Positions 34,988 to 61,747 of a stretch of DNA of 64,000 nucleotides are shown here, piece after piece. The number at the start of each line of letters is the position of its first letter. Position 1 is the first letter of the stretch. The notes under the pieces are model-generated. The model had not been told where the DNA came from. It was given only the letters and a program-made list of their open reading frames with translations, and did not search any database. The position numbers and the translations under genes were made by a program. Source of the stretch: Actinomycetes bacterium (lineage in GTDB: Bacteria > Actinomycetota > Acidimicrobiia > Acidimicrobiales > Acidimicrobiaceae); assembly GCA_021826315.1 (NCBI GenBank), contig JAKAZZ010000002.1, forward strand, positions 1-64,000. Direction: 5' to 3'.

Positions 34988-36355
34988 TTAGGCAGTTATT
35001 TGCGTTGCAACAAGGGAGCGAGCCTCTTCGGTGTAACTATCCCGCACTGCAATCGCGTCGAAGCCAAGTTTTTCGAGGATAGATGCGCCAAAGACGGATC
35101 GATAACCTCCAGCACAGTGGACATAGAGAGTCTGATCCTTTATGCCGTCGAGCTCACTATGGCGTTCGGACAAGTTGTGCACGGGAATATTGATCGCTCC
35201 AGGAATCGATGATTCCCGATTTTCGTTTTTACGCCTTACGTCTACGATCGGAGCCTTCTTCTTGGAGAGAGCTTCGGCGAGTCCCGGAAATGTAACGAGC
35301 TCCATCGAAGCTCTCTTTAGTACATTTGAGTCCGTCTTAGGAAAGAGGGTGTACCCGACGACGTTTTCGATTCCAATTCGTGCAAGCTGGCGCTTAGCTT
35401 CGAGTACTTGGGAGAGATCTGAGGCGACAAATGCAATCGCTTCGCCCCAAGGGTAGGTCCAGCCTAGGTAGGCAGAAAAACTGTTACTTATCCCTAAGGC
35501 TAAAGTTCCAACGATATGTTCGGCCGCGAAGGCTTCGCCGTCGCGAAGGTCCACTACGTATGCTCCATCGTTGATGAGTTTTGCAAGCTCGTCGTCTGAT
35601 AGTAGCGATGGTAGTGAATCAAAGTATGACGATGGACCCGATTGGTTCAACGGTCCCATATGTGCATAATAAGCCGGCCACTCATCGAGGCCGGCGAGGA
35701 GTGTCTCTTTGAATTCGTCCTCATCGGTTATGGTAAGAGCGAAGTTGTACTCCTTTTCTTCACCGATAGTCGAACTGTTAGAAACTTCGCACGTGTTCGA
35801 GGAGCAGAATGATCCAAAGCCATGGGTAGGAGCTACAGCAAATTCATCTGGAAGGGTAGCGGCGAGGTGGTTGACGCTGCGGAATTGGCTTCGAGAAAGA
35901 AAGTCAACCAAGTCGGGGCCGAGTAGATCAGGGCGCCCTACAGATCCGTATAATAGCGACCCACCTGAGAATATCGTTCCACTGCCGTCTTTTCCTCTTA
36001 CTTCAAACGAAATGTGGGTGGGTGTATGGCCGGGTGTGGCGATAACTTTAAGATTTAGCTCTCCAATATTCATGGTAAAGCCATCGGAGACGCCAACGCG
36101 CTCGAACGAAACTTCATCTTTTTCGTTTACGAGGTAAGGTACTCCAAGCAGTGTCGCCAATTCGTATCCACCAGTCACGTAATCGTTGTGCATGTGTGAT
36201 TCGGCTATAGCTACGATCTCAACACCAGCGTTACTTGCAGCCTCGATTACACGTTCGATGTCGCGTTGCGGATCAATTACTAGAGCTTTTTGTCCGTCGT
36301 GGACGATGTAACTTCTATCTCCAAGTTCTGGAGTGCTTAGGATGATTGTCTCCAT
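34988..36355 (-). CDS. MBL-fold (ETHE1/persulfide dioxygenase-like) protein with two rhodanese domains
   Basis: SHMHNDYVTGGYELA, ATPGHTPTHISFEV, GGSLLYGSVGRPDLLG. Second rhodanese loop VHCAGGYRSVFGAS; first rhodanese copy lacks Cys. Start ATG 36355. Confidence 0.9.
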   Translation of the reverse strand: METIILSTPELGDRSYIVHDGQKALVIDPQRDIERVIEAASNAGVEIVAIAESHMHNDYVTGGYELATLLGVPYLVNEKDEVSFERVGVSDGFTMNIGELNLKVIATPGHTPTHISFEVRGKDGSGTIFSGGSLLYGSVGRPDLLGPDLVDFLSRSQFRSVNHLAATLPDEFAVAPTHGFGSFCSSNTCEVSNSSTIGEEKEYNFALTITDEDEFKETLLAGLDEWPAYYAHMGPLNQSGPSSYFDSLPSLLSDDELAKLINDGAYVVDLRDGEAFAAEHIVGTLALGISNSFSAYLGWTYPWGEAIAFVASDLSQVLEAKRQLARIGIENVVGYTLFPKTDSNVLKRASMELVTFPGLAEALSKKKAPIVDVRRKNENRESSIPGAINIPVHNLSERHSELDGIKDQTLYVHCAGGYRSVFGASILEKLGFDAIAVRDSYTEEARSLVATQITA

Positions 36356-36462
36356 GGTCGTTATCCTCTCTTCAGGTTCAGCGTTGTCTATGCCACTTAT
36401 CGATCTGTTCATTATTACTTAGCTACATTTCGTCAGAGTTATCTTCGTACAGTTTTATACAA

Positions 36463-36521
36463 ATATTCTAATCGATCGCCATAAATGTACGTACATTATT
36501 ACATTTAGAACGTTAGAATAT
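36463..36521. promoter_or_regulatory. Divergent promoter/operator region: inverted octamer ATATTCTA...TAGAATAT flanking palindrome AATGTACGTACATT
   Basis: ATATTCTA 36463-36470, palindrome 36484-36497, TAGAATAT 36514-36521, lying between two divergently transcribed genes. Confidence 0.55.
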
Positions 36522-36572: not shown

Positions 36573-37388
36573 ATGGATGTAGTCCTCATTCTCTTGGGCT
36601 TGCTAATGGGCGGAGCTCTAGGTGCATTGGGTGGTGGCGGTTCGATTTTGGCCGTTCCTATGCTCGTTTACATAGCTGGAGAGAGCGTCAAGATTGGAAC
36701 GGCAGCCTCTTTGGTTGCAGTTGGGTCTGCTGCGCTCGCGGGAGCGATCGGTCATTACTTTGGAGGGCGAGTAAGGGTGAGCCGTGGTCTCATCTTTGGC
36801 GTAATCGGCTCCGGCGGCTCAATTATCGGCTCTTTGCTTAATAAGCACATCAATCAATATGTGCTTTTGATTCTCTTTTCGGCGTTGATGTTCTTCGTCG
36901 CCTCAAGGATGGTTAGAGTCAACTCTCCAAGAGTTGCACAAGCTGCTACGGGTGAATTGGACGAATTAGCTCCTGTCGCTAACAGTGGTGTTTTGCCACT
37001 TGACCTGTCACCTAAGGCGATACTTAAGCTGGTACTCGCTGCAAGCGGAGTCGGTTTTCTTACAGGATTTTTTGGCGTCGGTGGCGGGTTTGTAGTGGTG
37101 CCAGCTCTGGTGCTGTTTCTCGGGTTCAAGATGGACGAAGCTATTGGAACGTCTCTTCTTGTCATCTCGGTCAACTCCGCGGTAGCACTGCTCTCTCGTC
37201 TCGGTCAAGCGCATATGGATTGGGGCGTAATCCTTTACTTTTCAGCCGGAGCATTTGCAGGGTCCCTCATAGGGTCACGGCTGATGGCGCGCCTTCAAGG
37301 CAAGGCTCTGAAGAATGCTTTTGTCGTTCTGCTGGTAGTTCTGGCTACCTACATGGCCGGTAACTCGATCTTCCATTTGGTGCACTAA
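36573..37388 (+). CDS. TauE/SafE family membrane transporter (putative sulfite exporter)
   Basis: Duplicated GGGGSILAVPMLVYIAGESVKIGTAASLVAVGSAALAGAIGH and GVGGGFVVVPALVLFLGFKMDEAIGTSLLVISVNSAVAL motifs; multi-TM. Confidence 0.92.
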   Translation: MDVVLILLGLLMGGALGALGGGGSILAVPMLVYIAGESVKIGTAASLVAVGSAALAGAIGHYFGGRVRVSRGLIFGVIGSGGSIIGSLLNKHINQYVLLILFSALMFFVASRMVRVNSPRVAQAATGELDELAPVANSGVLPLDLSPKAILKLVLAASGVGFLTGFFGVGGGFVVVPALVLFLGFKMDEAIGTSLLVISVNSAVALLSRLGQAHMDWGVILYFSAGAFAGSLIGSRLMARLQGKALKNAFVVLLVVLATYMAGNSIFHLVH

Positions 37389-57501: not shown

Positions 57502-57948
57502 TTAGTAGGTCCGATACGCGAGGTACTTGCCACTCATTTCAAGCTTGACCCGATCGCCCTTTGGATCGGGTTGACGCGAGATGTCCATCTCAAAGTCGAT
57601 GGCGCTCATAATGCCGTCACCAAATTCTTCGTGGATCAGTTCCTTGATCGTTGTTCCATAGACCATGACAATTTCGTATAGTCGGTAGATAAGGGGATCT
57701 GTCGGAACCTGACTTGGAAGCGATCCACGATACGGAGGAACCTTCAAGAGAGAGATCTCAAAGTCGGTGAGGTCAAAGATCTCACCGATCTCTTGCGCAA
57801 CTCGATCGTCGAATGTCATCTGGCCTAGGCAACCCGCAGTTACCCACTCCTTGGATAGTCCGACTTTGTCGGCAATTTCCGACCATTTAAGTCCCTGAAG
57901 GATCTTCTTTTCCAATATCTTTTCTGTTACCTCAAGCCGAGTTGTCAT
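57502..57948 (-). CDS. cynS: Cyanate hydratase (cyanase)
   Basis: VPPYRGSLPSQVPTDPLIYRLYEIVMVYGTTIKELIHEEFGDGIMSAIDFEMDISRQPDPKGDRVKLEMSGKYLAYRTY; start MTTRLEV with SD GGAGGAG. Confidence 0.97.
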   Translation of the reverse strand: MTTRLEVTEKILEKKILQGLKWSEIADKVGLSKEWVTAGCLGQMTFDDRVAQEIGEIFDLTDFEISLLKVPPYRGSLPSQVPTDPLIYRLYEIVMVYGTTIKELIHEEFGDGIMSAIDFEMDISRQPDPKGDRVKLEMSGKYLAYRTY

Positions 57949-58112
57949 GCTCTCCTCCTTATCGTCGAGGCTATAGCTAAAGCGGTCCAAATCAAGGAAA
58001 TTGGAACGGATTTAACAAATCCTTCAACTTTGCTTTTGGATCTAATTTGGGCGGGGGTTCAATTTCGGAACTAACACTTGACTTTTTATTCTGTCAAATG
58101 TGTGATGTCGAC

Positions 58113-59628: not shown

Positions 59629-60885
59629 TTACGGTATCCATTTGAATGCCAGGAATGAAGAGAGGCCGGTAAGTGCGGCTGCGATCAATACTGATGCATT
59701 GAGTCCGGCCACATTTGCGATAATTCCAGCACCAAGGGCACCAACGGCATAACCTAGGTCTCTCCAGAATCTATATACTCCTAGAGTTTTGCTTCGTAAT
59801 GTGGGAGATACCGAGTCGGAGACGGCTGCTATCAGTGTTGGGTAGACCATTGCAGTTCCTATTCCTAACACAATCGATGAGGCGATTCCCGCTAGGAGTG
59901 GCCACTTCAAGAGTGCGATCGCGAGTACAAGCGCTGCCGCTTGAATGGCCATTCCAAGAACGATGAGTGGTTTTCTGCCGATTTTATCTGAAGCTAATCC
60001 GGTGGGAATCTGGCCAAAACCCCATAGGAGAGGGTAAATGCCTTTGATTATGCCTACCGCAGCAACTCCCAAGCCGTGATTGGTGAAGAGTAGAGGGAAG
60101 ACCCCCCATGTGACGGCGTCGTTCAAGTTGTTGATGAATCCAGCTTGACTTGCACCGCGTAATCTTCGATTGCTCCACGTCGTACTCCAGAATATCGAGG
60201 TGAATTTCGCTTGGTCGTGAAGGTTCTTGTTGCCGTTAAATGAATGTTGATGTGAGGCGTGGTTACTAGTCTCGTGCGCTACGTGATGTGCGGTGTCTTT
60301 TACCACGAGGCTCAATGCGAACCCTAGAACAACGAAGATGGCGCCAATTATCTCAGGGGCAGGGCGGAGGCCATAGTGGCTCGCTAAATAGCCGGTCAAA
60401 AGTGCTGTGGCACCGACTGCGCCATAGCCAGCGGCTTCGTTGATACCCGTAGCCAAACCACGCTGCTTGGGTCCAACCAGATCGATCTTCATATTTACGG
60501 TCATGGACCACGTCAAACCTTGGTTCAAGCCGAGAGCAATATTCGCTACGATGATTACCCACCAGTGCGTCGAATAGGCGAGAATAAATGGTACCGGAGC
60601 CCCAACTATCCACCCAGTGATCAAGATGGAACGCTTGGGGTATTTGGCGGTAAGAGGGCCGGCCAACAGATCAGTAGCAGCCTTAGCGACGCCAAAGGCG
60701 ATTATGAAGGAGAAGATTGCAATCGTATTAGCGAGATGAAATACCTCTCTCCCGACCAAAGGTGTCGTCGTACGTTCAAGCCCTACAAGCCCACCTACGG
60801 TTATATTTATGAGGGCGAGAAGGATGAATTGACTAAGGTTCTGCCTGATACCGAGCTTGATTACCCTAGCCGCCTGCTGCTTCAT
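59629..60885 (-). CDS. Major facilitator superfamily transporter
   Basis: Multi-TM; TDLLAGPLTAKYPKRSILITGWIVGAPVPF, GFGQIPTGLASDKIGRKPLIVLGM. Divergent from the ArsR-rhodanese gene. Confidence 0.9.
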   Translation of the reverse strand: MKQQAARVIKLGIRQNLSQFILLALINITVGGLVGLERTTTPLVGREVFHLANTIAIFSFIIAFGVAKAATDLLAGPLTAKYPKRSILITGWIVGAPVPFILAYSTHWWVIIVANIALGLNQGLTWSMTVNMKIDLVGPKQRGLATGINEAAGYGAVGATALLTGYLASHYGLRPAPEIIGAIFVVLGFALSLVVKDTAHHVAHETSNHASHQHSFNGNKNLHDQAKFTSIFWSTTWSNRRLRGASQAGFINNLNDAVTWGVFPLLFTNHGLGVAAVGIIKGIYPLLWGFGQIPTGLASDKIGRKPLIVLGMAIQAAALVLAIALLKWPLLAGIASSIVLGIGTAMVYPTLIAAVSDSVSPTLRSKTLGVYRFWRDLGYAVGALGAGIIANVAGLNASVLIAAALTGLSSFLAFKWIP

Positions 60886-60983: not shown

Positions 60984-61021
60984 ATTCAGATATTCTAGTA
61001 TTCTTGATAATTATAGAATAT
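60984..61021. promoter_or_regulatory. Candidate operator/promoter: phased ATTC half-sites and ATATTCTA-N16-TAGAATAT inverted repeat
   Basis: ATTC at 60984, 60992 and 61000 (8-bp period); ATATTCTA 60990-60997; TAGAATAT 61014-61021, just before ATG 61031. Confidence 0.55.
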
Positions 61022-61030
61022 ACTGTTCAT

Positions 61031-61747
61031 ATGGGTGATGCGCGCAACAAAGAAGATTTATACGGAGCCTTCGCGGAGGTGGGTAAAGTTCTTTCAAATG
61101 GTAAGAGAATCGAGATCCTCGATGTCCTTTCCCAAGGTGAGAGGAGTGTTGAGGTTCTAGCGGAGCGCGTGGGCACTTCGGTTACTACTACTTCGGCGCA
61201 TCTGCAAATCATGCGCAGGAGCGGTCTCGTTTCGACCCGTCGTGAAGGAACTCACATCTATTACAGCCTCGCAAGCTTCGACGTGGTCAAGTTGTTGGAG
61301 ACCTTTCGAAGCGTGGCTCGAATGCATTATGAGCGGGTGGAACCGGCTTTGGAACGGTACTTAGGAAGTAACGAGGCTGAATCGATCGATCAAGGTGATC
61401 TCCAAAGGAGATGGAGTCGCGGCCACATCGTAATTTTAGATGTCCGGCCTCATGAAGAGTATTTGGCAGGCCACATCCCCGGTGCGATTTCGATTCCGCT
61501 AGAACGACTCTCCGATGAAGTTGAAAAGGTCTTCGAAGTAGAAGCCGCATCTCCTTCTTCTTTGCCCGAAAGTGAACAGGGTAGCGTCACTCCAGCAGAC
61601 CTCGAGATCGTCGTTTATTGTAGAGGTGCCTACTGCTCCTTCGCCAATGACGCCCTTGCAATCCTGCAGAGTCGCAAACTCAATACAATTCGCCTTTCCG
61701 ATGGCTTTACTGAATGGAGGATAGCTGGGCGTGAGGTTGAAGTTTGA
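61031..61747 (+). CDS. ArsR-family HTH regulator fused to C-terminal rhodanese domain
   Basis: ArsR wHTH (LSNGKRIEILDVLSQGERSVEVLAERVGTSVTTTSAHLQIMRRSGLVSTRREGTHIYYSLAS); rhodanese (VILDVRPHEEYLAGHIPGAISIPLE, VVYCRGAYCSFA, LSDGFTEWRIAG). ATG 61031 preferred over 61004. Confidence 0.92.
   Translation: MGDARNKEDLYGAFAEVGKVLSNGKRIEILDVLSQGERSVEVLAERVGTSVTTTSAHLQIMRRSGLVSTRREGTHIYYSLASFDVVKLLETFRSVARMHYERVEPALERYLGSNEAESIDQGDLQRRWSRGHIVILDVRPHEEYLAGHIPGAISIPLERLSDEVEKVFEVEAASPSSLPESEQGSVTPADLEIVVYCRGAYCSFANDALAILQSRKLNTIRLSDGFTEWRIAGREVEV

Follow-up and report, generated by a model that had tools for sequence, protein, structure and literature searches.

P0001, a fusion of an ArsR-type winged helix-turn-helix (HTH) and a rhodanese domain, is probably an autorepressor that also controls a divergent MFS transporter gene and lets go of the DNA once a sulfane-sulfur bridge forms between two cysteines of the rhodanese loop, C197 and C202. 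The gene lies in a 64-kb stretch of DNA (64,000 nucleotides), which was analysed as a whole and is referred to here as the window. On balance, the evidence from the wider family favours a more general reading, in which ArsR-rhodanese fusions form a class of one-component sulfane-sulfur sensors that crosses phylum boundaries. These would carry a CRGxxC dithiol built in a repurposed rhodanese loop by replacement of the loop arginine, and would use a conserved TATTC-N12-GAATA operator to control their own genes and a linked module (MFS, dioxygenase or SQR), with the mycobacterial Rv0324 as a member.

The N-terminal half of P0001 belongs to the ArsR/SmtB family, with its winged HTH scoring above the curated cut-offs of PF01022 (37.4 bits, cut-off 22) and NF033788 (74.6 bits, cut-off 55). 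The C-terminal half is a rhodanese domain (PF00581, 55.1 bits, cut-off 22.2) whose loop cysteine is C197. An AlphaFold2 model made with 52 family members is confident for both domains (mean pLDDT 91, pTM 0.85) and for their arrangement relative to each other. The best Foldseek matches are solved structures of single halves, and no solved structure of a full-length ArsR-rhodanese fusion was found, as the top PDB matches cover one domain each. Translation from the ATG at 61031 agrees with an earlier note on this DNA, which had described an HTH half free of cysteine and only two cysteines in the protein, both in the rhodanese loop; they are C197 and C202, in VVYCRGAYCSFA (loop YCRGAYCSF). P0001 and its two congeneric orthologues also have an insert of variable length at 61526-61600 (about residues 166-190), before the active-site strand, which is predicted with low confidence and is absent from the other fusions. 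The features discussed below are collected in Table 1.

Table 1. Positions of the fusion gene, its operator and the related genes in the window
Feature	Coordinates	Strand	Remarks
ArsR-rhodanese fusion gene P0001	61031..61747	+	238 aa; ATG and synteny kept in two congeneric species
ArsR winged-HTH half, about residues 3-111	61037..61363	+	No Cys; Asp31 at the SqrR/HlyU α2 Cys position
Rhodanese domain, residues 122-230	61394..61720	+	
C197 codon, rhodanese-loop cysteine	61619..61621	+	Invariant, 126/126
C202 codon, replaces the usual loop Arg	61634..61636	+	Invariant, 126/126
Core operator TATTC-N12-GAATA (TATTCTTGATAATTATAGAATA), 22 bp	60999..61020	.	Conserved in genus and family
Extra half-site ATATTCTA	60990..60997	+	8 bp upstream of the core left arm; ATTCTA kept in genus
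Putative -10 TATACT	61019..61024	+	6 nt before ATG; overlapped by operator; conserved in three species
Divergent MFS transporter	59629..60885	-	Phylum-wide linkage to the fusion
MBL-fold and rhodanese protein, type III persulfide dioxygenase kind	34988..36412	-	Context; lacks the P0001 operator
TauE/SafE-like exporter	36573..37388	+	Divergent from the dioxygenase-like gene; TauE from sequence and likeness to the Pfam-confirmed neighbour at L047

The family set comprises 126 distinct full-length ArsR-rhodanese fusions, P0001 included, and spans Actinomycetota, Chloroflexota, Proteobacteria, Acidobacteria, Gemmatimonadota, Planctomycetes, Armatimonadota and others. The alignment of fusions that the earlier note had proposed as a check on the cysteine distribution shows both loop cysteines to be invariant in the whole set, among 17 invariant columns (alignment A2), and the pair is the only cysteine site that all fusions retain. 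The loop motif formed part of the seed of the genome-contig scan for fusions; both cysteines are likewise present in 30 of 30 loci sampled with a whole-protein HMM that did not use the motif. C197 is the rhodanese catalytic cysteine, so its conservation is expected for catalysis anyway.

The HTH half tells a different story about cysteine. At residue 31, which aligns with the α2 cysteine of SqrR and HlyU (RLMIMC, RLQILC), 100 of the 126 fusions have Asp, 26 have Glu and none has Cys, which bears out the earlier view that the HTH sensor position is not a cysteine here; the estimated α5 site, aligned position 97, is likewise free of Cys in all 126. A completely Cys-free HTH half holds for P0001 itself but not as a rule of the family, as it is found in 88 of the 126 fusions, while 38 have some cysteine there; exactly two loop cysteines and no others are found in 74. 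One subclade (L057, L059, L063, L071, L073, L084 and similar loci) has an extra pair of HTH cysteines at aligned positions 34 and 86, which are not the BigR positions. In place of the dioxygenase/MFS module its members have DsrE and SQR-like genes as neighbours, an association with Fisher p-values of 5e-4 (DsrE) and 5e-5 (SQR) that, like all p-values given here, are indicative as the sequences are related.

What sets the fusions apart from ordinary rhodaneses is the sixth position of the active-site loop. It is Cys in 126/126 fusions, whereas in ordinary rhodaneses of related genomes an arginine stands five residues after the loop cysteine in all 13 readable loops. P0001 thus lacks the arginine expected at this position of an active sulfurtransferase, and we infer from the alignment that the fusions have exchanged it for a resolving cysteine. 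The rhodanese half could still be a working sulfurtransferase, or a sulfur relay that acts on other proteins while DNA binding is controlled otherwise or not at all, given that the domain is complete and the catalytic cysteine present. We consider this quite unlikely, because the usual arginine has become Cys in every fusion, the inter-domain model is confident, and across many phyla the halves remain joined and the operator is maintained. Sensing through C197 and C202 is the best reading of these data, and a fairly probable one.

A C-X4-C loop may also be a general dithiol switch or a thiolate metal site. The signal would then be a soft metal or metalloid, for example As(III), Cd(II) or Cu(I), or else an oxidant or electrophile, with efflux of it as the task of the MFS protein. 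This would suit the invariance of the dithiol, the membership of P0001 in the ArsR family and the weak matches of the MFS protein to drug-efflux models. However, the HTH half has neither a CxC motif nor any other cysteine metal site, the dithiol is located in a domain that binds sulfane sulfur, and the neighbouring genes encode sulfane-sulfur enzymes rather than metal or arsenic functions, all of which makes a metal or general dithiol sensor unlikely. The ELCVCDL-type site that the earlier note had reported missing is indeed absent: P0001 has no CxC in α3, the arrangement of ArsR/SmtB proteins that sense metals or As(III), and no cysteine in its HTH half. The α5 ligand positions of CzrA and SmtB read S82, D84, V95 and M98 in P0001 by an ungapped offset to CzrA and its usual ligand numbering, and this site is also lacking.

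Upstream of P0001, ATTC occurs at 60984, 60992 and 61000, and ATATTCTA (60990-60997) and TAGAATAT (61014-61021) form a dyad with an N16 spacer, just where the earlier note had placed them. Within one sequence the dyad is unremarkable, because a perfect inverted repeat of at least 8 turns up in 10% of the sequences obtained when the 145-bp intergenic region is shuffled by dinucleotides. Three ATTC in 8-bp steps appear in 0 of 2000 shuffles, for a pattern that was chosen after being seen. Comparison with the other species of the genus is more informative. Three congeneric species retain synteny here, and intergenic conservation is limited to 60991-61024, where 33 of 34 columns are identical compared with 18 of 62 in the remaining intergenic region (Fisher p=1.3e-11). 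Among the three, conservation covers the right arm and the ATTC at 60992 and 61000 but not the one at 60984, and three phased ATTC can no longer be taken as the operator.

The family defines the operator further. An inverted-repeat scan with no motif preset finds ATTCAA-N8-TTGAAT / TATTCA-N10-TGAATA arms upstream of the fusions far above shuffled sequence: 54 of 126 fusions reach at least 10 of 12 matches, where 0.75 would be expected. TATTC-N12-GAATA is present at 8 or more of 10 matches upstream of 92 of the 126 (6.7 expected), and the spacing is specific, as any other from 6 to 19 reaches at most 36. Expected values are from first-order Markov resamplings, and start codons outside the window's genus are approximated. 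With spacing 12 as the sole strongly enriched geometry, the N16 dyad is superseded. Members in Streptomyces and Mycobacterium have ATTCCA/TGGA-type versions of the operator. The exact TATTCA-N10-TGAATA occurs once per genome, before the fusion gene, in six of seven further genomes, and the exact TATTCT-N10-AGAATA once in each of the three genus genomes, at the fusion-gene site. By these comparisons the operator core uses the inner ATTC, and the outer ATTC is an extra half-site at the level of the genus, outside the family operator. P0001 therefore has a deeply conserved operator of its own, as had been supposed, though at another spacing, and control through it is very probable in view of this conservation.

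A promoter scan found no canonical sigma-70 promoter upstream of P0001 at the strict threshold, and the gene start is probably leaderless. The right arm of the core operator overlaps the putative -10, as expected for a leaderless promoter that is blocked by its own repressor. Repression and its target site are well supported computationally, with repression rather than activation being the presumed outcome.

Wider use of the site within the genome was considered and rejected. TATTCTA-N(10-40)-TAGAATA is found only at P0001 in each of the three genomes, and plain TATTC-N12-GAATA has 4, 2 and 3 matches compared with 0, 2 and 1 for the reversed control. ATATTCTA and TAGAATAT have exactly two copies each in the window, one per sulfur-related intergenic region (36463, 36514, 60990 and 61014). 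In the region between the dioxygenase-like and TauE-like genes the arms are spaced differently from those at P0001, and the copies at 36463 and 36514 were discarded as a second operator, having the wrong geometry and being incompletely kept in the congeners. The same region contains the palindrome AATGTACGTACATT (36484-36497) in a stretch conserved in three species. It has only two copies in each of two of the three congeneric genomes and looks like the operator of another regulator, distinct from P0001.

The divergent MFS transporter, which the earlier note had named as a second target, is a true genetic partner of the fusion. Of 79 fusion loci, 29 have a homologue of it no more than about 5 kb away, in addition to the two congeners. 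Among 198 genomes sampled evenly from the phylum, the matches listed show the fusion in 35, the MFS protein in 38 and both in 32 (Fisher p=2e-27). The two genes are within 1.7 kb on one contig, divergent or co-directional, in 29 of these 32, again among the matches listed, from which all linkage counts are taken. The G000 assembly is about 90% complete. On the MFS side of the intergenic region, the congener comparison shows no conserved promoter element beyond the shared operator.

Other recurrent neighbours of the fusion loci are genes for type III persulfide-dioxygenase-like proteins (26), DsrE (about 22) and SQR-like flavoproteins (about 18). The MFS gene or at least one of these three is present at 53 of the 79 loci. 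Since these neighbours handle sulfane sulfur, it is the most likely signal. In the window the dioxygenase-like protein, whose best solved match is 3TP9, with 3R2U also matching, is encoded 23 kb from P0001 and without the operator, which counts against the favoured explanation; in other genomes its relatives directly adjoin the fusion.

Alternatively, the rhodanese pocket could bind an anion such as thiosulfate, sulfite, thiocyanate or cyanide non-covalently, and this anion would be both inducer and cargo of the MFS transporter. Rhodaneses do bind anions of this type, genes for TauE-type exporters are found in some fusion neighbourhoods, and all three congeneric genomes have a cyanase (cyanate hydratase) gene, here at 57502-57990, at a distance of about 3 kb from the fusion. 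The cyanase link, however, is seen only in the genus of P0001, and non-covalent binding leaves the absolute conservation of both cysteines unexplained; we regard an anion sensor as very unlikely.

Returning to sulfane sulfur as the signal, the following mechanism may be envisaged. P0001, presumably a dimeric repressor of the ArsR type, would bind TATTC-N12-GAATA, overlap the putative -10 of the leaderless fusion gene and repress both this gene and that of the divergent transporter. The fused rhodanese domain would be the sensor, in which C197 accepts sulfane sulfur from a persulfide or polysulfide. C202, in place of the loop arginine, could then attack the C197 sulfur to form a di- or polysulfide bridge. 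The resulting change in the loop would loosen DNA binding by a putative allosteric coupling, and the MFS gene would be expressed. In other genomes, release would also allow expression of the linked persulfide-dioxygenase-like, DsrE and SQR-like genes. If this is true, a sensor in the fused rhodanese is a concrete, testable alternative to HTH cysteine sensing, and the family offers an operator, two mutable residues and a transporter target with which to approach it.

The ArsR-rhodanese architecture is already known, because fusions are present in sequence databases and Mb0332/Rv0324 of the M. tuberculosis complex is evidently one; a sensing site in the rhodanese loop would be the new variant. 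The HTH half of Mb0332 (2KKO, 3GW2) is the closest solved structure to that of P0001, both by Foldseek and by sequence. A fusion from M. persicum with an HTH nearly identical to 2KKO has the architecture of P0001 and a YCRGAYC loop, and it is through this homologue that Mb0332/Rv0324 can be placed in the family; P0001 shares with it the ArsR HTH followed by a C-terminal rhodanese with CRGxxC. Published work on Rv0324 treats it as a node in networks of hypoxia and of bedaquiline tolerance (PMC4916473, PMC9480834). In the literature examined no sulfur ligand is reported for Rv0324/Mb0332, and in the open-access literature we found no paper that treats an ArsR-rhodanese fusion as a sulfur sensor or deals with its function. 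The fusion family thus suggests a signal for a regulator so far known only from hypoxia and drug-tolerance networks.

A comparable gene arrangement is found in the CsoR circuit of S. coelicolor, which also includes a rhodanese and where the repressor adjoins a type III PDO and a sulfite transporter and responds to sulfane sulfur (PMC7533328), a response that is putative for P0001. The regulator there is of the CsoR type and its site is ATACC-N6-GGTAT (PMC7533328), whereas in the P0001 family the corresponding place is taken by an ArsR-rhodanese fusion, paired with an MFS transporter. Further parallels are the persulfide-sensing repressors BigR, SqrR, HlyU, SoxR and sHdrR, which have in common with P0001 the ArsR fold, a two-cysteine chemistry and sulfur-detoxification neighbours (PMC5823870, PMC12423496). 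BigR binds over the -10, and polysulfide releases it by oxidising its cysteine pair (PMC5823870). By analogy, repression by P0001, expected at its own gene and at the MFS gene, should end once C197 has been persulfidated and C202 has closed the bridge. The cysteine pair of these regulators is located in α2 and α5 of the HTH, but that of the P0001 family is in the fused rhodanese loop, and P0001 has no pair at the α2/α5 positions. It scores 45 bits with the NCBIfam BigR model NF040642 (cut-off 155), a cut-off reached in none of 41 related genomes. Many sulfur-linked ArsR regulators have no cysteine pair and perhaps act differently (PMC12423496), and for these the fusion family is a candidate answer. 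Although the cysteine pair and the NCBIfam model place P0001 outside the BigR/SqrR class, it may well work as they do.
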